This document shows, piece by piece, positions 1-11,239 of a stretch of DNA of 64,000 nt. The notes under the pieces are model-generated. The model saw nothing but the letters and a program-made list of their open reading frames with translations, was not told the DNA's origin and ran no database searches. Every line of letters begins with the position of its first letter. Within the stretch, counting starts at the first letter, position 1. A program made the position numbers and the translations under genes. Origin of the DNA: Mesorhizobium intechi (GTDB taxonomy: Bacteria > Pseudomonadota > Alphaproteobacteria > Rhizobiales > Rhizobiaceae); contig NZ_PNOT02000107.1 of NCBI RefSeq assembly GCF_002879535.1, positions 1-64,000 on the forward strand. The letters run 5' to 3'.

Positions 1-157
1 AAATAGGTGTGTGTGCCGGCAAGCAGGCGTGTCATGAACTCTCTTTGCCAGAGCGAAAAATCAAAAATCCAAAAATATTCTGAAACTCGCGCGTTTTTGT
101 TCCGTATCTCCTCACGTTCCCAAAAATGGGAAGAGAAACCCGAGGAGTTTGAACATA

Positions 158-715
158 ATGCGTAGATACGCCGCCCTTTTGCTTGCCGGTACGATCGCCG
201 TTTCCGCGCTTGCCACCGCCGCCTATGCCGAAAACCCGATGGTCGGCGGTGCCGCCATGTACGCCCAGAAGAACATCGTCGAGAACGCCGTGAACTCGAA
301 GGATCACACGACGCTGGTCGCCGCCGTCAAGGCCGCCGGCCTGGTCGAGACGCTGCAAGGCGCCGGTCCGTTCACCGTCTTCGCGCCGACCAACGAGGCC
401 TTCGCGGCACTGCCGGCCGGCACGGTCGACACGCTGCTCAAGCCCGAGAACAAGGACAAGCTGACCAAGGTCCTGACCTGCCATGTCATCGGCGCCAAGG
501 CGATGGCGGCGGATGTGGCATCGATGGCCAAGGCTGACGGCGGCACGCACAAGGTCAAGACCGTCGGCGGCTGCGAGCTGTCGCTGAAGGCCGAGGGCGG
601 CAAGGTCACCGTCACCGACGAGAACGGCAATGTCGCCAATGTGACGATCGCCGATGTCGAGCAGTCCAACGGCGTCATCCACGTTATCGACAAGGTTCTT
701 TTGCCGAAGATGTAA
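158..715 (+). CDS. Secreted fasciclin-domain (FAS1) protein, copy 1
   Basis: 185-residue exported protein with an N-terminal signal peptide (residues 1 to about 23, ending ATAAYA) followed by one FAS1 domain. The domain shows the H1-type segment TLVAAVKAAGLVETLQG, the core FTVFAPTNEAFAALP and the terminal H2 box SNGVIHVIDKVLLP. FAS1 proteins are cell-surface or periplasmic adhesion-type proteins; no enzymatic role is known. I chose the ATG at 158 because GAGGAG lies 10 bases upstream; an in-frame TTG at 149 is too close to that site. It is a close paralogue of the gene at 10558-11118. Unlike that copy it carries two cysteines (in LTCHVIG and GGCELS) that could form a disulfide. Confidence 0.9.
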   Translation: MRRYAALLLAGTIAVSALATAAYAENPMVGGAAMYAQKNIVENAVNSKDHTTLVAAVKAAGLVETLQGAGPFTVFAPTNEAFAALPAGTVDTLLKPENKDKLTKVLTCHVIGAKAMAADVASMAKADGGTHKVKTVGGCELSLKAEGGKVTVTDENGNVANVTIADVEQSNGVIHVIDKVLLPKM

Positions 716-1549: not shown

Positions 1550-3145
1550 TTAATGCCCGCCGCCTCCACCACCACCGGGCGCGGCCGGTTTGTTGATCAG
1601 CATCGTGAACAGGCCGAGCGTGGCGAACAGCACCGTCAGCATGTAGAACACGTCCATGAAGGACAGCAGCGCCGCCTGCTGCTGGACCATGCCGGACAGC
1701 TTGGAGATCGCCGCACTGGCCGCATCCAGGCCGGTCGTCTGCTCGAAGTTCAGCGTCATGTTCTGCAGCTTGGTCTGCGCGGCGGCACTGCCCCACTGCA
1801 CATGCTCGGCGAGCCTCGCATAGTGGAAGGCGTTGCGGTCGATCAGCACGGTGTTGATGAGGGCTAGGCCGACGGCGCCACCGAGGTTGCGGGTCAGGTT
1901 GAACAGGCCGGACGCGTTCTTCAGCCGGTCGGGCGGCAACGTGCCGAGCGCGATGTTGTTGATCGGCACCATGCACAGCATCATCGAGCAGCCGCGCAGG
2001 ATCTGCGGGATGAGCAGCTCGTAAAAATCCCAGTCGGCGGTGAGATGCGTCATCCACCAGGTACCGGTAGCGAAGCCGAAGAAGCCGATCATCATCATCA
2101 GCCGCAAATCCATTTTGCTCGACAGGATGCCGGAGATCGGCGCGGTGACGAACATCGCCAGGCCGCTGACGAACAGCGCCTCGCCGATCATCATCGAATC
2201 ATAGCCGCGGATACGGCCGAGGAAGACCGGATAGAGATAGGTCAGGCCGTAGAGGCCGATGCCGATAACGAAGGAAAACAGCGAGCCGAAGGCAAAGTTG
2301 ACGTTGCTGAAAGCCCTGAGGTCGACGATCGGCTCCTCGGCGGTGAAGACGCGCCAGAAGAAGATCACGGCGCCGACGCTCATGACGATGGCGCAGATGA
2401 ACACACCCTGGTCCTGCAGCCAGTCATTGTTCGGACCCTCCTCCAGCACATATTCCATGCAGCCGAGGAACGCCGCCATGCCGGCGAGGCCCCACCAGTC
2501 GAACTTGTTGAACAGCTTGAGATTGGGCTTGTCGAAATCGATCAACGACCAGGCGGCGGTCGCCACCAGGATGCCGGGCACGACATTGACCAGGAACAGC
2601 CAGTGCCATGAAAAGGCGTGACTGATATAGCCGCCGACGGTCGGGCCGATGGTCGGCGCCAGCGTCGCCACCAAACCGATCATCGGCGAGACGACAGCGC
2701 GCTTGGAGGGCGGGAAGATGGTGAAGGCCGCTGCAAAGACGCTCGGGATCATGCCGCCGCCGATAAAGCCCTGCACGGCGCGGTAGACGATCATCTGGTC
2801 GATGTTTGTGGCGGTCGCGGCAAGCGCGCTGGCCGCGGTGAAGCCGGCGGCGGCGATGGTGAACAGCACGCGCGTCGACAGCATCCGGCTGAGGAAGCCC
2901 GACAGCGGGATCATGACCACCTCGGCGATCAGATAGGCCGTCTGCACCCACGGAATTTCGTCGGAGCTGGCGCTGAGGCCCGCCTGGATTTCGGCGAGCG
3001 AAGCCGAGACGATCTGGATGTCCAGGATCGCCATGAACATACCGAACACCATCGCGAGGAAGGCGATGACGCGGCGTGTGGAGATAGTGTCAGGGACCGC
3101 GGGCCTTGCCGGCGGCGCTCCTGCGGTGATGGTAGCGGTTGCCAT
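1550..3145 (-). CDS. DHA2-family multidrug MFS transporter (EmrB type)
   Basis: 531-residue drug:proton antiporter of the 14-helix DHA2 family. Inner-membrane partner of the membrane fusion protein encoded just upstream (3218-4408). The first helix carries AILDIQIVSASLAEIQAGL, the family pattern with the helix-1 aspartate, and helix 5 carries GPTVGGYISHAFSWHW, motif C of exporters. The C-terminus is an unusual glycine-rich tail ending in histidine. The start at 3145 is supported by AAGGAGG eight bases upstream. It is separated from the fusion-protein gene by about 70 bases, and both are probably controlled by the divergent TetR gene at 4537. The exported compound is unknown. Confidence 0.9.
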   Translation of the reverse strand: MATATITAGAPPARPAVPDTISTRRVIAFLAMVFGMFMAILDIQIVSASLAEIQAGLSASSDEIPWVQTAYLIAEVVMIPLSGFLSRMLSTRVLFTIAAAGFTAASALAATATNIDQMIVYRAVQGFIGGGMIPSVFAAAFTIFPPSKRAVVSPMIGLVATLAPTIGPTVGGYISHAFSWHWLFLVNVVPGILVATAAWSLIDFDKPNLKLFNKFDWWGLAGMAAFLGCMEYVLEEGPNNDWLQDQGVFICAIVMSVGAVIFFWRVFTAEEPIVDLRAFSNVNFAFGSLFSFVIGIGLYGLTYLYPVFLGRIRGYDSMMIGEALFVSGLAMFVTAPISGILSSKMDLRLMMMIGFFGFATGTWWMTHLTADWDFYELLIPQILRGCSMMLCMVPINNIALGTLPPDRLKNASGLFNLTRNLGGAVGLALINTVLIDRNAFHYARLAEHVQWGSAAAQTKLQNMTLNFEQTTGLDAASAAISKLSGMVQQQAALLSFMDVFYMLTVLFATLGLFTMLINKPAAPGGGGGGGH

Positions 3146-3217
3146 TTCATGGGCCTCCTTGAGGCCGGCCGGGCGGCCCAGCGCTTCATCAGCCGCCGAA
3201 CCGCCCTCCGAAAGTGC

Positions 3218-4408
3218 CTAGTTGGTCGTCGCGGCGGGTGCGGTGCGGCTGTCAACGTTGACGACAACGCTGAGGCCAGCACGCAGCTTGCCGGTCTTCA
3301 GGGCATCGGCCGGCACGTCGATGCGGACCGGGACGCGCTGCACAACCTTGGTGAAGTTGCCGGTGGCGTTTTCCGGCGGCAGCAGCGAGAAGACCGCGCC
3401 CGAGGCCGGAGCGAGCGACGAGACGGTTCCCTGGATGGGATGGCCGTCGATGGCGTCGACCGAGATGTTGACCTTTTCGCCGGGAACGAGCCGGGCGAGT
3501 TGCGTCTCCTTGAAGTTGGCGACGATGTAAAGCTTGTCCAACGGCACGACGACGGCGAGCTTCTGGCCGGGGCTGACGAGATCGCCCTGCTCGACGGAAC
3601 GGTTGCCGACGACGCCGTCATAAGGCGCCTTGAGCACGGTGAAGGACAGGTCGCGCGCCGCCTTGTCGCGGCTGAGCTGCAGCGAAGCGAGCGTGCTCGC
3701 GGACTCGGCGCGCTGTGCCTCGAACACGCCGATATTGGCCTGTGCGGCGGCGATCTGCGCATCCGCGCCAACCAGCGCGGCATTGGCCTGGTCAAGCGCG
3801 GTCTGCGCGTCGTCCAGTTGCGCCTGCGTGCCGACATGGGTCTTGACCAGCTGCGCGGCGCGCTGCTGGGCACGGGCGGCATTGTCGGCCGCGGCCTGGT
3901 CGGCGACCTTCTGCGCCTGGGCCTGCTGCAGGGACGCCTGTGCCGCCTTGGTCTGCGCGTCGATGCGGTCGAGCGTCTTCGCCAGCGTGGCGATCTGCGC
4001 CTCGGTCTGGGCGACGGCTATCTTGTAGTCGCCATCGTCGATCGTCAGCAGCGGGTCGCCGGCCTTGACCAGCTGGTTCTCGCTGACCTTGACCTGGTCG
4101 ACATAGCCGGAGATCTTGGGCGAAACGAACGCCATGTCGGCCTGGACATAGGCATCGTCGGTCGAGATCATGAAACGGCCCGTGGTCCAATAGTCATAGC
4201 CGTACCAGGCGCCGCCGCCCAGGAGGGCAAGGCCGATGATCGGCAGCAGGAAGGAACGCACCGAGCGCTTCTTCTTGGCCGGAGCTTCGGCCGCCGGCCG
4301 CGGGGCGGCGACTGGCTGGACGGGGATTTCCGGCGCTTCGGTCGCCGGTGCGACCTTGGCGTTGGGGAAAGGGCGGACTTCGGCGGTGTTGGGCGCGTTC
4401 GAGGACAT
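3218..4408 (-). CDS. HlyD/EmrA-family membrane fusion protein
   Basis: 396-residue periplasmic adaptor of an EmrAB-type efflux pump. A proline/alanine-rich cytoplasmic N-terminus is followed by one membrane helix (about residues 49-70), the first biotinyl-lipoyl half around DDAYVQADMAFVSPKISGYV, a long alanine/glutamine-rich coiled-coil hairpin (about 130-255) and the second lipoyl/beta-barrel half with FTVLKAPYDGVVGNR. It should link the MFS pump encoded next to it with an outer-membrane channel not found in this window. The promoter region contains a palindrome 26 bases before the ATG, matching a second one before the divergent TetR gene. Confidence 0.9.
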   Translation of the reverse strand: MSSNAPNTAEVRPFPNAKVAPATEAPEIPVQPVAAPRPAAEAPAKKKRSVRSFLLPIIGLALLGGGAWYGYDYWTTGRFMISTDDAYVQADMAFVSPKISGYVDQVKVSENQLVKAGDPLLTIDDGDYKIAVAQTEAQIATLAKTLDRIDAQTKAAQASLQQAQAQKVADQAAADNAARAQQRAAQLVKTHVGTQAQLDDAQTALDQANAALVGADAQIAAAQANIGVFEAQRAESASTLASLQLSRDKAARDLSFTVLKAPYDGVVGNRSVEQGDLVSPGQKLAVVVPLDKLYIVANFKETQLARLVPGEKVNISVDAIDGHPIQGTVSSLAPASGAVFSLLPPENATGNFTKVVQRVPVRIDVPADALKTGKLRAGLSVVVNVDSRTAPAATTN

Positions 4409-4433
4409 GACATCTCTCTAAAGTAATAATACT

Positions 4434-4447
4434 GAACCGTTCGGTTC
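4434..4447. promoter_or_regulatory. TetR operator candidate O1
   Basis: Perfect inverted repeat GAACCG-TT-CGGTTC, 26 bases upstream of the fusion-protein start on the minus strand. It shares the GAACC/GGTTC half-sites with the palindrome at 4496-4513. The TetR gene is divergent, so autoregulation and repression of the efflux pair is the likely use. No binding data. Confidence 0.6.
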
Positions 4448-4495
4448 GATCCGGCCGTTGACATAGCGCGGAAAGAGGACCATATCAAGGGGCAA

Positions 4496-4513
4496 TCGAA
4501 CCGGCTGGTTCGA
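4496..4513. promoter_or_regulatory. TetR operator candidate O2
   Basis: Inverted repeat TCGAACC-GGCT-GGTTCGA with seven-base perfect arms, 23 bases before the TetR ATG. The centres of O1 and O2 are 64 bases apart, about six helical turns, so both would lie on the same face of the DNA. Confidence 0.6.
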
Positions 4514-4536
4514 ATTATTTTCGAGGTGTGACTTTG

Positions 4537-5271
4537 ATGGCCGAGACAACGCCTGACGTCGAAACCGACAAATGCAATGAACTGCTGGAGAGCCTGCGGC
4601 GTGGCAGGCCGGCGGCCGGGCAGGATCCGGTCAAGCGCAGCCAGATCATCGACGGCGCCCGGCGTGTCTTCATCGACAAAGGCTTCGAGGCCGCCTCGAT
4701 GAACGACATCACGCGGGAAGCCGGCGTGTCGAAAGGCACCATCTATGTCTATTTCGCCAACAAGGAAGAGCTGTTCGAGGCGCTGATCGAGGAAGAGCGC
4801 GGCACCATCTTCAAGAACATGTACGACGTGCTGGACCGGGCTGATGACCTGCGCGAGACGCTGGTGAAGTTCGGCAAGGTGCTGTCCATGAAGATCACCT
4901 CGGCCAAGGTGATCCAGGCACAGCGCACCGTGATCGGCGCGTCGGACAGGATACCCGAGCTTGGCGCGCGCTTCTACGAGCGCGGCCCGAAACGCGGCCA
5001 TGACAAGTTCGTGGTCTTTCTCAACGCTGCCATAGAGCGCGGCCTGCTCAAGATCGACGATGTCGACCTTGCGGCCTACCAGTTCACCGATCTATGCCTG
5101 GCCGGCCTGTTCCGGCAGTGCATCTTCGCCTATCGGGCCAAGGCGCCGACCCAGGATGAAATCGACCATGTCGTGAGGTCGGGCGTGCGCATGTTCCTGA
5201 TGGCCTACGGCACCGAAAGCCTCGCCGAGGAAGAAGGCCACCAGATGATTGCCCTGGAGGCTAAGGCTTAG
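4537..5271 (+). CDS. TetR/AcrR-family repressor, divergent to the efflux pair
   Basis: 244-residue TetR regulator. The helix-turn-helix spans about residues 37-83, with ARRVFIDKGFEAASMNDI and the recognition region VSKGTIYVYFANKEELFEAL. The rest is a ligand/dimer domain (AefR-like C-terminal type is possible). The N-terminal extension of about 33 residues is longer than usual. I chose the ATG at 4537 because GAGG lies ten bases before it; an in-frame GTG at 4528 is too close to that site. It most likely represses itself and the HlyD/MFS pair at 4408-1550 through the two palindromes in the shared intergenic region. The inducer is unknown. Confidence 0.9.
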   Translation: MAETTPDVETDKCNELLESLRRGRPAAGQDPVKRSQIIDGARRVFIDKGFEAASMNDITREAGVSKGTIYVYFANKEELFEALIEEERGTIFKNMYDVLDRADDLRETLVKFGKVLSMKITSAKVIQAQRTVIGASDRIPELGARFYERGPKRGHDKFVVFLNAAIERGLLKIDDVDLAAYQFTDLCLAGLFRQCIFAYRAKAPTQDEIDHVVRSGVRMFLMAYGTESLAEEEGHQMIALEAKA

Positions 5272-7061: not shown

Positions 7062-7178
7062 CTTCGAGATCCTTGCCGGAAAATCCGCGCCGCCGGGGCG
7101 CCGCTTCCGTGTCGTGGCCCATGCGTTTTTTGGTCCGCGCGGCTTAGTCCGTCTTGCACGCGCCGTCCAGCGGGATTA

Positions 7179-7205
7179 TGTGCATGATGATAATAAGCAT
7201 GCTCA
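7179..7205. promoter_or_regulatory. Possible MarR-type operator upstream of the emrAB pair
   Basis: AT-rich imperfect inverted repeat with outer arms TGTGCATG and CATGCTCA around a GATGATAATAAG centre. It lies about 35 bases before the MarR remnant and is the only AT-rich patch in the 180-base intergenic region. MarR proteins typically bind such sites in front of their own operon. Confidence 0.35.
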
Positions 7206-7238: not shown

Positions 7239-7544
7239 ATGTCCTCCTCCCCTCATATCGGCTTCGTGCCGCGCAACGTCGCGCGCCTGCTTCGAACGCG
7301 CTTCGGGAAGCGTTCGCGGGTCCGCCTGGACGACCGCCGGCCGTGCCTGCCTTACCCGATCCCGCATGCCGGCCCGCTGCTCGAGATCATGCGCGGCAAC
7401 GGCAGGAAAACACGGGACGAGGCCTTGGCCGGTCATTCGTCTGAAACACGGCGGCTTCGGCCGCAAACCCCAAGCTTCATCAAATCCAATCTGCTCGCGG
7501 CTCGCACCCGGCCAGCCGACGACCGGGAGAAAGTCCATGGCTGA
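7239..7544 (+). pseudogene. MarR-family regulator lacking its winged helix-turn-helix
   Basis: An uninterrupted frame of 101 codons. Residues 1-25 match the dimerisation N-terminus of MarR/EmrR-like repressors (IGFVPRNVARLLRTRFGKRS). From about residue 30 the protein resumes with what looks like the end of the wing and the C-terminal dimer helices (GPLLEIMRGNGRKTRDEALA, then FIKSNLLAARTR). The roughly 55-60 residues that would form the DNA-binding domain are absent. The reading frame overlaps the start of the HlyD gene by eight bases, as an intact marR-emrA-emrB operon would. Either an in-frame deletion pseudogene or a mini-protein that can only dimerise. The alignment is by eye. Confidence 0.65.
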
Positions 7545-8832
7545 ATCCACATCCCCCAAGAAGCCCGCCGAAAACGACCCGGCCACGGGTCGCACCGGCG
7601 ACCAGGTCATCCGGTTGGACAGCGAGCGCGAGCAGAGGCGCGCCAATGCCGTCATCGACAATGGCGAGCTGGAAGCGCCGGTCGGGCTGCAGCCGGCGGC
7701 ACTCGAGGCGCCGGCCAAGGAGCCGCAGCCGGCTCCTGTCGCCGTTGCCCCTCCCGCTCCTGTTCCGGCCAAGCCGAAGCGCAGCCTGAAGCGCCCGGTG
7801 CTGTTTGCCCTGCTTCCCATCGGGCTCGCCGTCGGCGGCTATTACTACGTGACCGGCGGCCAGGTGATGACGACCGACAATGCCTACATCCAGGCGCAGT
7901 CGCTCGGCGTGTCCACCGACGTCTCCGGCACCGTGCAGGAGATCGACGTGCACGAGAACCAGTCGGTGAAGAAGGGCGACGTGCTGTTCCGCCTGCGGCC
8001 GGCCTCCTTCGAAACCGCTCTTGCCGCCGCCCAGGCACAACTCGGGACGGTGCGCAACCAGGTGCTGACCCTGCAGGCGAGCTACCAGCAGTCGCTGTCG
8101 CAGATCGAACAGGCGCAAGCCGACATTCCCTATTACGAGGCCGCGTTCCAGCGGCAGCAGGACCTGCTCAAGACCTCCACCGCCTCCAAGGCGTCTTTCG
8201 ACAGTGCCCAGCACGACCTCGTCGCGGCGCGCCAGAAAGTGTCCGTCGCCAAGGCGCAGGCGCAGGCCACGCTTGCCCAGCTGGGCGGCGACGCCAACCA
8301 GCCGGTGGAGAAGAACCCGTTCTACCTGCAGGCCCAGTCGGGCGTCGACGATGCCCAGCGCAACCTCGCCGATTCCGTGGTCAAGGCGCCGTTCGACGGT
8401 GTGGTCACCAATGTCGACGCGCTTCAGGTCGGCAAATATCTGCCGGCCTCGCAGCCGGCCTTCAGCCTGGTGTCGTCGACCGATCTGTGGATCGAGGCGG
8501 AGCCGAAGGAAACCGAACTGACCTATGTGCGGCCGGGACAGACGGCGACGATCAGCGTCGACACCTATCCGGGCGCCGTCTGGCACGGCACGGTTGCCTC
8601 GATCAGCCCGGCCTCGTCGTCCAGCTTCTCGCTGCTGCCGGCGCAGAACACCACCGGCAACTGGGTCAAGGTCGTGCAGCGCATTCCGATGCGCGTGACG
8701 GTCGATGATAGCAAGGGCAAGCCACCGCTGCGCGGCGGCATGAGCGTCGTCGTCGACGTCGAGACCGGCCATGCGCGCGGCCTGCCGGACTTCGTCGCCA
8801 ACCTCATCGACCGGTTCGGGCACAAGTCATGA
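7537..8832 (+). CDS. emrA: EmrA/HlyD-family membrane fusion protein
   Basis: 431-residue adaptor of a second EmrAB-type pump. A charged N-terminal tail with proline/alanine repeats precedes one membrane helix (about residues 88-105). The lipoyl half DNAYIQAQSLGVSTDVSGTV follows, then a coiled-coil hairpin rich in A and Q (about 160-265), and the second lipoyl/beta-barrel half with VVKAPFDGVVTNVDAL. The start ATG at 7537 has GGGAGAAAG upstream and lies inside the end of the MarR remnant. The frame stays open further upstream to about 6883, but that extension lacks sense. The MFS gene begins in the stop codon (ATGA), so the two are translationally coupled. Confidence 0.9.
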   Translation: MAESTSPKKPAENDPATGRTGDQVIRLDSEREQRRANAVIDNGELEAPVGLQPAALEAPAKEPQPAPVAVAPPAPVPAKPKRSLKRPVLFALLPIGLAVGGYYYVTGGQVMTTDNAYIQAQSLGVSTDVSGTVQEIDVHENQSVKKGDVLFRLRPASFETALAAAQAQLGTVRNQVLTLQASYQQSLSQIEQAQADIPYYEAAFQRQQDLLKTSTASKASFDSAQHDLVAARQKVSVAKAQAQATLAQLGGDANQPVEKNPFYLQAQSGVDDAQRNLADSVVKAPFDGVVTNVDALQVGKYLPASQPAFSLVSSTDLWIEAEPKETELTYVRPGQTATISVDTYPGAVWHGTVASISPASSSSFSLLPAQNTTGNWVKVVQRIPMRVTVDDSKGKPPLRGGMSVVVDVETGHARGLPDFVANLIDRFGHKS

Positions 8833-10376
8833 CCAGCGCGACCGCGGCAGGTGCCACACCGGTGGTCGCCAATCGCGGCGCCATCACGGCTTGCGTGATC
8901 CTGGCGGTCATCATGCAGGCGCTGGACACGACCATCGCCAATGTCGCGCTGCCCTACATACAGGGCAGCGTTTCGGCCAGCGCCGACCAGATCAATTGGG
9001 TGCTGACCTCCTATATCGTCGCGGCAGCGGTGATGACGCCGCCTTCGGGCTACCTCGCCAACCGGTTCGGCCGCAAGCGCATCCTGCTGACCTCGATCAC
9101 CGGCTTCGTCGTCGCTTCGGTGCTGTGCGGCTTCGCGCAGTCGCTGCCGCAGATCGTCGGCTTCCGCCTGCTGCAGGGCCTGTTCGGCGCGGCGCTGGTG
9201 CCGCTGTCGCAGAGCATCCTGCTCGACATCTACAGTGTGGAAGAGCGGGGCTCGGCGATGGCGCTGTTCGGCGTGTCGGTGATGGTCGGGCCGGTGCTCG
9301 GCCCGGTCATCGGCGGCTGGCTGACCGAGAACGTCTCCTGGCGCTGGGTGTTCTACATCAACGTGCCGATCGGGGCGCTGGCTTTCGCCGGCGTGTCCCT
9401 GTTCGTGCTGGAAACCAAGCTGGACAGCAAGGCAAGGCTCGACTGGCTGGGTTTCGGCATGCTCAGCATCACCATCGCGGCGCTGCAGATGTTTCTCGAC
9501 CGCGGCGAGCAGCTCAACTGGTTCTCCTCGTCCGAGATCATCGTCGAGGCGCTGATCTGCGCGTCGGCTTTTTACATCTTCCTCGTCCACACCTTCACCG
9601 CCAGGAACACGTTCGTTAATCCGCGGCTGTTCCTGGACCGGAATTTCGCCGTCGGCATGATCTTCATCTTCATCGTCGGCATCACCTATCTCGCCTCGCT
9701 GGCGCTGATGACACCCTATCTGCAGACGCTGATGGGCTATCCGGTGGTGACGGCCGGTATCGTCATGGGCCCGCGCGGCCTCGGCACCATGGCCTGCATG
9801 TTCTTGGTCGGCAGACTGGTCGGCAAGGTGGACACACGTTGGCTGCTGTTCATCGGCCTCGCGATCACCGCCTGGGCGATGTACGACATGACCGGCTGGA
9901 CGCCCGACGTCTCGCAATGGACGATCATCAGCACCGGCTTCATCCAGGGCGCGGGGCTCGGCTTCCTCTTCGTGCCGCTGACCACCATAACCTTCGCCAC
10001 GCTGGCGCCGGAACGGCGGGCGGAAGGCACCGGGCTCTACAATCTGTCGCGAAACATCGGCTCCAGCGTCGGCATCTCGGTGGTCACCGCGCTCCTGACG
10101 CAGAACGTGCAGATCAACCATGCCAACATCGCCGCCTATGTGACGCCCTTCAACCAGGCATTCGGCAATCCGGCGATCGCGCAGGCGATGAACCCCTACA
10201 CCGCCGCCGGTCGCGCAGCACTGGACGGCGTGGTGACGCTGCAGGCGACTGTCATCAGCTACATGGATGACTTCAAGCTGATGATGGTGCTGTCGCTGGC
10301 CGCCATCCCGCTGGTGCTCTTGCTGCGCAAGCCAGGCACGCCGGCCAAGGTCGACCATAGTGCCGTGATGGAGTGA
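8829..10376 (+). CDS. emrB: DHA2-family MFS efflux transporter (EmrB type)
   Basis: 515-residue, 14-helix drug:proton antiporter. Helix 1 carries MQALDTTIANVALPYIQGSV with the conserved aspartate. The motif-A loop is GYLANRFGRKR. Motif C is VLGPVIGGWLTENVSWRW. It begins in the stop codon of the fusion-protein gene, so the pump subunits are made together. An outer-membrane channel is not encoded nearby. The normal MarR repressor of such an operon is broken here, so expression may be constitutive or under another regulator. Confidence 0.92.
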   Translation: MTSATAAGATPVVANRGAITACVILAVIMQALDTTIANVALPYIQGSVSASADQINWVLTSYIVAAAVMTPPSGYLANRFGRKRILLTSITGFVVASVLCGFAQSLPQIVGFRLLQGLFGAALVPLSQSILLDIYSVEERGSAMALFGVSVMVGPVLGPVIGGWLTENVSWRWVFYINVPIGALAFAGVSLFVLETKLDSKARLDWLGFGMLSITIAALQMFLDRGEQLNWFSSSEIIVEALICASAFYIFLVHTFTARNTFVNPRLFLDRNFAVGMIFIFIVGITYLASLALMTPYLQTLMGYPVVTAGIVMGPRGLGTMACMFLVGRLVGKVDTRWLLFIGLAITAWAMYDMTGWTPDVSQWTIISTGFIQGAGLGFLFVPLTTITFATLAPERRAEGTGLYNLSRNIGSSVGISVVTALLTQNVQINHANIAAYVTPFNQAFGNPAIAQAMNPYTAAGRAALDGVVTLQATVISYMDDFKLMMVLSLAAIPLVLLLRKPGTPAKVDHSAVME

Positions 10377-10557: not shown

Positions 10558-11118
10558 CTACTTCGGCAACAGCACCTTGTTGACGACATGGATGACGCCG
10601 TTCGACTGGTTGACGTCGGCGATGGTCACCTTCGCCTCGCCGCCGGACTCATCCATGATGTAAAGCTTGTTCTTCTTGACCTCGGCGGTGAGCGTGTCGC
10701 CGGAGACGGTCTTCATCTCGTATTTGCCGCCCATCGCCTTGGCCTTCTTCATCATCTCGGCGCCTGAAATCTTGCCGGCCACGACATGCGCGGTCAGCAC
10801 CTTGGTGAGCTTGTCCTTGTTCTCAGGCTTGAGCAGCGTGTCGACCGTGCCGGACGGGAGTGCCGCGAAGGCCTCGTTGGTCGGTGCGAAGACGGTGAAC
10901 GGGCCGGCGCCCTGCAGCGTGTCGACCAGGCCGGCGGCCTTGACGGCGGCGACCAGCGTGGTGTGGTCCTTCGAATTGACGGCGTTCTGGACGATGTTCT
11001 TGGTGGTGTACATCGGCGCCCCGCCGACATTCGGGTTCTTGGCGTAGGCGGGGGCGGCAATCGCCACGCCGGCGACGAGGGCGGAAATGGCGATGATCCT
11101 GAATGACGGCAAGCGCAT
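10558..11118 (-). CDS. Secreted fasciclin-domain (FAS1) protein, copy 2
   Basis: 186 residues: signal peptide (about 1-26, ending APAYA) and one FAS1 domain with VFAPTNEAFAALPSGTVDTL and the terminal SNGVIHVVNKVLLPK. The first 95 mature residues are nearly identical to the protein at 158-715; the second half diverges and lacks both cysteines found there. The start at 11118 follows CGGAGGAAG. A longer in-frame start at 11208 would hide the signal peptide and is unlikely. Probably a monocistronic envelope protein. Confidence 0.9.
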   Translation of the reverse strand: MRLPSFRIIAISALVAGVAIAAPAYAKNPNVGGAPMYTTKNIVQNAVNSKDHTTLVAAVKAAGLVDTLQGAGPFTVFAPTNEAFAALPSGTVDTLLKPENKDKLTKVLTAHVVAGKISGAEMMKKAKAMGGKYEMKTVSGDTLTAEVKKNKLYIMDESGGEAKVTIADVNQSNGVIHVVNKVLLPK

Positions 11119-11239
11119 GTGGTCTTCCTCCGGGTGAGGGCTGATCGGAATTGATAAGCCTTTGGAATTGCACACGCAGTCACGCTCCGCGACCGCTCGC
11201 GGTTTCACCGATCACGGAAACGTGAACGAATGCCCGCCC

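Follow-up and report, generated by a model that had tools for sequence, protein, structure and literature searches.

In-frame remnants of a MarR repressor gene ahead of the emrAB pump in Mesorhizobium: a probable translated leader beneath a conserved operator-like element

What is left for a repressor gene to do once its DNA-binding domain has been deleted, and why is its reading frame still open? The question is raised by a 101-codon frame in the window, as the whole 64,000-nucleotide stretch of Mesorhizobium intechi DNA analysed here is called. An earlier note, made from the sequence alone, had described this frame as a MarR gene with an N- and a C-terminus, no winged helix and an eight-base overlap with emrA, the first gene of an intact efflux pair. 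Alignment to full-length relatives and Pfam searches agree with that description, and both pump genes match the corresponding Pfam families. The note had also proposed that the DNA-binding domain was lost by in-frame deletion, which is upheld here, and that either the pump is now unregulated or the small protein dimerizes with other MarR proteins and blocks them, neither of which is favoured by the results described below. Cis-acting translation of emrA is a third option beyond these two. The genes concerned are as follows.

7239..7544, + strand: residual frame of an emrR-type marR gene with the winged helix deleted; 101 codons, ATG to TGA
7319..7352, + strand: approximate deletion junction, from alignment with G135, HUAK, G019 and G118; the exact breakpoint is ambiguous
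7537..8832, + strand: emrA, membrane-fusion protein (HlyD family); Pfam match
8829..10376, + strand: emrB, MFS transporter; Pfam match

The gene order marR-emrA-emrB is that of the EmrR (MprA)-emrAB type of operon, which, with SlyA-type MarR repressors, is among the nearest known counterparts. Intact relatives of the window gene have the MarR_2 winged helix, and the best PDB matches of the intact profile were SlyA proteins. In contrast to that type, most or all of the DNA-binding domain is deleted here in 21 of 73 Mesorhizobium loci and in one more, G069, so that the product cannot work as a MarR repressor. Common descent with MarR is evident from the N- and C-terminal codons of the window frame, which align with the intact marR that G135 has in this position, and the order marR-emrA is found at the same place in relatives. 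Aligned to the N- and C-terminal parts of the 154-aa MarR encoded there, the window frame has a net loss of 159 nt. This is probably, to judge from the alignment, the 144-nt loss common to M. huakuii, M. jarvisii and G118, extended by some 15 nt; one alignment placed it as two losses of 42 and 117 nt. The 101-aa product matched 61 of 146 genus genomes at E<=0.001. Homologues of about 101 residues without similarity to MarR, which the earlier note had named as evidence that would speak against its reading, were not found.

An intact relative of 154 residues has a Pfam MarR_2 match over residues 29-88 (E=8.1e-15). The 101-aa product matched no Pfam family at E<=1, and the winged helix-turn-helix that marks the MarR family (PF12802 / PF01047) was not found in it. 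The AlphaFold model of the intact relative L111 has a MarR-like fold (mean pLDDT 85.7) with helices at residues 7-29, 33-44, 50-57, 61-73, 95-115 and 121-143 and wing strands at 77-81 and 89-93. Because of these positions, the window form is predicted to be without helices 2-4 and most of the wing and to retain helices 1, 5 and 6. The product itself was modelled from a shallow alignment of 16 rows with a mean pLDDT of 54.9 and is predicted to be disordered, with the helix 1, 5 and 6 segments present. As judged from these alignments, the 101-codon frame is what an in-frame deletion of the winged helix has left of an emrR-type MarR gene. The local 101-aa protein can hardly repress any more.

The census of the genus was anchored on emrA rather than marR, so that a broken or absent marR would show up. 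An emrA orthologue (E<=1e-100) was found in 72 of 146 genus genomes, the upstream stretch was taken for all 72, and M. huakuii was added to give 73 loci. Among these, 47 have an intact 154-aa marR, one has a marR of 152 aa (G035), 21 are shortened in frame and four are frameshifted. A locus was defined as shortened if its remnant was in frame with the overlapping TGA; this definition demands an open frame, and the fair count is therefore 21 of 22 when every locus with a large loss is included, the remaining one being G069. The shortened frames have 43 (six loci), 62 (three), 63, 72, 79, 82, 84, 101 (two), 106, 107 (three) and 109 codons. At least eight primary deletion types were distinguished by breakpoint.

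132-nt deletion: G123
141-nt deletion: G007 and G024
144-nt deletion: M. huakuii and M. jarvisii; probably G118 too, which has lost another 9 and 6 nt in frame, and the window, which has lost about 15 nt more
207-nt deletion: G068 and G069
216-nt deletion: G017 and G115
276-nt deletion: G016 and G136, perhaps G034
333-nt deletion: six species with 43 codons
Complex deletion: G107 and G108

The types were counted by eye, with G034 merged with G016/G136, G017 merged with G115, and G107/G108 taken as one. Several large deletions were broken by the aligner into non-multiples of three (e.g. 271+62 nt); net changes were counted. A repetitive Gly-His-rich stretch takes the place of the middle of the residual frame in L052 (G107) and L056 (G108); it is in frame in both, and the two differ in it by 30 nt.

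A single ancestral deletion was rejected because the breakpoints differ between species, and the deletions look, from their sequences, like at least eight separate events. Shortened loci stand in many places of the emrA tree, in which support is low near the 43-codon group (29-49 in places). Recombination is likely, and deletions may therefore be common to some species through transfer. Assembly error as a general explanation was also rejected, since different species carry different deletions and these are also seen in contigs of at least 7 Mb; the window itself belongs to a 393-contig draft. The 20 other loci with an in-frame-shortened marR include G118, G024, G017 and G115, which lie in contigs of 7.1-7.9 Mb, making chance or a single assembly error unlikely. 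Outside the genus, a sample of 151 family genomes gave 10 non-Mesorhizobium matches at E<1e-55. All were of full or nearly full length, two having a stop in the last few codons of the matched stretch, and marR erosion beyond Mesorhizobium was not seen in this sample.

The large losses (at least 100 nt) are in frame in net in all 22 loci, and the frame was retained in 21 of them; in G069 it was not, owing to an extra +1 just after the ATG. That insertion is the sole exception among the smaller changes in these loci, which are otherwise +3, -3, -6, -9, about -15 and 30 nt. The chance of eight primary events all being in frame is about (1/3)^8 = 1.5e-4. The noncoding spacer that separates the ATG from a 27-mer described below measures 36 nt in the window. 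Its length departs from the usual one in 27 of 69 loci, and in 24 of these (counted as loci, not events) the departure is not a multiple of three. Reading from the marR ATG is open beyond the emrA start in 72 of the 73 loci, the single exception being G113, which has a stop 177 nt ahead of emrA. In G069 the frame set by the ATG continues beyond the emrA start, and in G052 and G079 a frameshift places marR in the emrA frame. The latter two are sister genomes with different single-base losses near marR codon 130 (L067 and L064, respectively), each creating a potential MarR-EmrA fusion. Given the lost frames of G069 and G113, coupling would not be absolute, except if these two cases are errors or of very recent origin.

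The open frame can also be read as a recent accident in a plain pseudogene, the repressor having been lost and the pump being constitutively on. The frameshifts in G113, G069, G052 and G079 and the largely vanished amino-acid constraint described next are in keeping with such decay. It is difficult to reconcile with at least eight deletion types that are each in frame in net, or with the eight pairs of loci that share a deletion. These pairs are about 10% diverged. None has gained a stop, and the number expected to do so is 2.4 of 8 (P=0.037).

Rates were analysed in 68 of the 73 loci, with G035 and the four frameshifted loci left out. A branch codon model of the 28 end codons gave an omega of 0.232 on intact branches and 0.85 on shortened branches (LRT for two classes, 53.3), and omega=1 was not rejected on the latter (LRT 1.16). 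The pooled value averages two unlike ends: on shortened branches, codons 2-17 alone had an omega of 0.61, significantly below 1 (LRT 7.2), and the 12 C-terminal codons one of 1.71 (LRT 4.1 against 1). As a guess, the low value may stem from the period preceding the deletion or from what initiation requires, and the high value from constraint on synonymous sites. IQ-TREE gave an omega of 0.635 for the shortened loci alone, with kappa held at 1 and pre-deletion branches included.

The eight deletion-sharing pairs, which cover post-deletion time only, gave a pooled NG86 omega of 0.71, within the range of a neutral simulation (0.58-1.24, P=0.21), and 14 intact pairs gave 0.19. By this measure the residual frame could not be distinguished from neutral. 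Both sets of pairs were hand-picked, and G000, G118, G017, G115, G123 and G034 are in no pair. In the post-deletion pairs, the residual frame differs at 142/1,428 sites (9.9%) and the spacer at 9.0%; emrA codons +8 to +100 differ at 8.3% in the same pairs, so that per-site divergence alone is no proof of neutrality. Taken by dN/dS, the residual codons appear near neutral overall, and constraint on the protein is probably largely gone.

These results bear on the second outcome proposed earlier, a dominant-negative or modulating mini-MarR whose helices 1, 5 and 6 would dimerize with intact MarR proteins and titrate them. The dimerization helices are largely kept in the window form and in six others of 101-109 aa, and the omega of 0.61 at codons 2-17 leaves room for this reading. 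Near-neutral evolution of the residual codons as a whole argues against it, as do the predicted disorder of the product (from the shallow alignment) and the forms of 43-63 aa without helix 5 that are held in the same frame, the 43-codon sisters also being without most of helix 6. Such a function is therefore considered very unlikely, and the remnant is best read, on present sequence comparisons, as a translational-coupling leader and not as a dominant-negative dimerizer.

The features expected of a leader are found where the residual frame meets emrA.

7537..7544, + strand: 8-nt stop/start overlap ATGGCTGA, the last 8 bases of the residual frame and the first 8 of emrA; ATGNNTGA in 73/73 loci
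7525..7529, + strand: emrA Shine-Dalgarno GGGAG, inside the residual frame; GGGAG in 70/73 loci, CGGAG or AGGAG in the other three
7491..7526, + strand: possible RNA hairpin, from the RNAalifold consensus and its pairing probabilities, that would pair part of the emrA Shine-Dalgarno

At these loci the stop overlaps the next start and the Shine-Dalgarno lies within the upstream frame. The frame is kept (21/22) while its protein is free to change, as the near-neutral pooled omega indicates, but codons 2-17 stay below 1 and G113, G052 and G079 are frameshifted. The stretch from the ribosome site to the TGA has 3/160 differences in the eight post-deletion pairs. The rate of the ribosome site itself, expressed like those of the other site classes in units of emrA branch length, is 0 on shortened branches, not significantly lower than the 0.25 on intact branches (LRT 2.7). 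No Shine-Dalgarno-like sequence was seen ahead of the marR start in the nine loci inspected. Huber et al. (2023; PMC10666635) measured that termination-reinitiation needs no more of the upstream gene than its final 15 nt and that coupling is nearly lost when the gap is about 20 nt. These measurements are consistent with equal performance of leaders between 43 and 109 codons long. Translation of emrA would, from this arrangement, need coupling to the leader. Two variants were observed near the emrA start. In L046 (G037) the stop/start overlap is tandemly duplicated (ATGGCTGAAAACACATGGCTGA), and in L036 (G017) an extra C in a C-run just after the overlap shifts the first emrA codons, the remaining emrA being open.

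The leader might act as a sensor as well, if slowed or stalled ribosomes altered the exposure of the emrA Shine-Dalgarno, as in an attenuation-type regulatory uORF. In 11/11 loci examined, the unpaired probability was predicted to be below 0.25 for no fewer than two of the three G of GGGAG, and the left arm of the putative hairpin evolves more slowly than the loop in shortened lineages (0.59 vs 2.77). On the shortened branches, the two stem arms have rates of 0.59 and 1.1 and the coding stretches outside the putative stem rates of 1.5-2.8. However, shortened and intact branches show no significant difference in arm rate (LRT 2.4), no conserved stall peptide was seen, and leader lengths vary widely. 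The pairs of the hairpin are nearly invariant and do not covary, and little weight is therefore placed on it; its mean structure z is also weak, at about -0.8 (-0.76 in shortened and -0.89 in intact loci). The hairpin over the emrA Shine-Dalgarno was thus kept as a possibility, and a sensing leader is regarded as very unlikely.

The other outcome proposed in the earlier note, an unregulated pump, concerns the sequence ahead of the residual frame.

7154..7182, + strand: sigma-70-like promoter elements, TTGCAC (7154-7159), a 17-nt spacer and TATGTG (7177-7182); read from the sequence
7176..7202, + strand: 27-bp operator-like element TTATGTGCATGATGATAATAAGCATGC; cross-locus conservation

TTGCAC and TATGTG are the putative -35 and -10 elements, and TCTTG is present at the promoter position in 72/73 loci. 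The 27-mer is exact in 21/21 shortened and 43/47 intact loci. At up to 3 mismatches it was found in 69/146 genomes, once in each and always at this operon (reversed control, 0), and its single occurrence per genome led to the rejection of a regulon-wide motif. The eight post-deletion pairs show 0/216 site differences in it, and its rate is 0 on shortened branches vs 0.29 on intact branches (LRT 12.2). The operator-like element is thus conserved in loci without a working local regulator. If the pump were simply unregulated, the 27-mer should drift; no drift was seen, which argues against that outcome and also against a plain pseudogene, on balance an unlikely explanation of these loci. Something presumably still binds the putative operator in the shortened loci. 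In L061 (G133), L068 (G045) and L082 (G129), marR is intact and the operator has diverged; the core in G133 is TAAGCACGCTTA, as ahead of the paralogue described next.

Which protein might read this element? Its core is found at one other place in the genome.

7190..7205, + strand: 16-bp core ATAATAAGCATGCTCA, common to the operator-like site of the paralogue EmrR2; pattern search

A search of the 6.58-Mb genome to which the window belongs for the pattern ATARTAAGCAYGCTYA, allowing 1 mismatch, gave two places only: here and, on both strands, ahead of EmrR2 (reversed control, 0). EmrR2, a name used here, is a MarR paralogue 38% identical to the full-length protein. It is present in 130/146 genomes and in 20/20 shortened genomes, in 19 of which its site is found at up to 2 mismatches, the exception being G016. 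In the 8/8 relatives' stretches that reach its end, EmrR2 has 157-159 residues, with TAAGCACGCTTA 27 nt ahead of its start, and the overlapping gene after it has 372-393 codons or more, being HlyD-family and EmrA-like in the four of the eight checked by Pfam. In the window's own draft genome, the contig stops after 144 residues of EmrR2. In L173-L180, EmrR2 overlaps the EmrA-like gene behind it, which starts one base before the stop codon (ATGA), so that coupling of regulator and pump is likely there too.

Takeover of the emrAB operator by EmrR2 is the best candidate explanation for its conservation, as the common core suggests. The own genome has 64 PF12802 matches, not all of them MarR proteins. 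Similar sites stand ahead of full-length orthologues in some other genera, and the two operators may therefore have common descent; the core common to both regulators may reflect only the descent of the two. Other keepers of the operator were considered. No second intact copy of the emrAB MarR was found in the 20 shortened genomes among the matches listed, the best being the remnant or a match at E of about 1e-27 to 1e-30, the level of the paralogue. A TetR gene at 4528-5271 in the window was rejected in this role, since the core pattern does not occur in its intergenic region, whose palindrome seems unrelated.

The explanation that we hold to be likely is that the remnant of an emrAB-specific MarR is kept as a translated leader and that its operator is still used, most likely by EmrR2. 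Ribosomes that had initiated at the old marR start would terminate at the TGA, which lies within the start of emrA, and the GGGAG among the leader's final codons would let them reinitiate at emrA (termination-reinitiation). Deletions in the repressor core would be tolerated while the frame stays open into emrA. The operator would be read most likely by EmrR2, whose site has the same 16-bp core. This suggests that handing ribosomes on to the pump is all that the remnant is retained for, with another repressor reading the site. More tentatively, and with somewhat less than even confidence, the locus may record the repeated conversion, in at least eight events, of a repressor gene to a pure translation leader. 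Frame, emrA ribosome site and operator would have been kept because EmrR2 now regulates two pumps through a common operator, local control having become shared control with the promoter unchanged.

Overlapping genes with coupled translation, leader frames ahead of drug pumps and regulators in decay each belong to a known kind. In Bacillus subtilis, a short translated frame reportedly lies immediately ahead of the drug-pump gene of BmrC/BmrD. Unlike that leader uORF, the present one shows no stall sequence or evidence of an attenuator, and it derives from a former repressor gene. In Escherichia coli, the overlapping pairs hyfH-hyfI and menD-menH are translationally coupled by termination-reinitiation (PMC10666635). 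They likewise have a short stop/start overlap, and a short 3' piece of the upstream frame suffices (PMC10666635). The upstream genes of those pairs are ordinary native genes, whereas here constraint on the upstream protein is largely lost and the frame is kept; the overlap is 8 nt here, compared with the 4 or 1 nt named as common there. The apparently new element, for which the top-ranked matches in the open-access literature showed no counterpart, is a repressor gene decaying repeatedly in frame into a leader while its operator is frozen. Among these matches, no report was found of recurrent in-frame loss of a MarR DNA-binding domain.

These loci provide a natural replicated experiment, which separates the role of a first-in-operon regulator as a protein from its role as mRNA. 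It is predicted that some of the small MarR-like or hypothetical proteins annotated before efflux pumps are leaders, that a frame shift in such a leader silences the pump, and that an operator read by a paralogue can persist after its own repressor is gone.

A rhizobial EmrAB pump with a TetR-type EmrR is known from Sinorhizobium meliloti (Rossbach 2014, cited in PMC4990936). The window also has a TetR-headed emrAB-like set, at 1550-5271. The regulator there belongs to a different family from that of the MarR-type operon, the intergenic palindrome looks unrelated by eye, and the S. meliloti pump does not correspond to the MarR-type operon of the present analysis. The set in the window consists of an EmrA-like gene (3218-4408, - strand) and an MFS gene (1550-3145, - strand), headed by the divergent AefR-like TetR gene (4528-5271, + strand) with its different-looking palindrome; some 2.8 kb separate it from the MarR-type operon. 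The stretch with both efflux operons is bracketed by two fasciclin-domain genes, at 149-715 (+ strand) and 10561-11208 (- strand), which are similar to each other and oppositely oriented.
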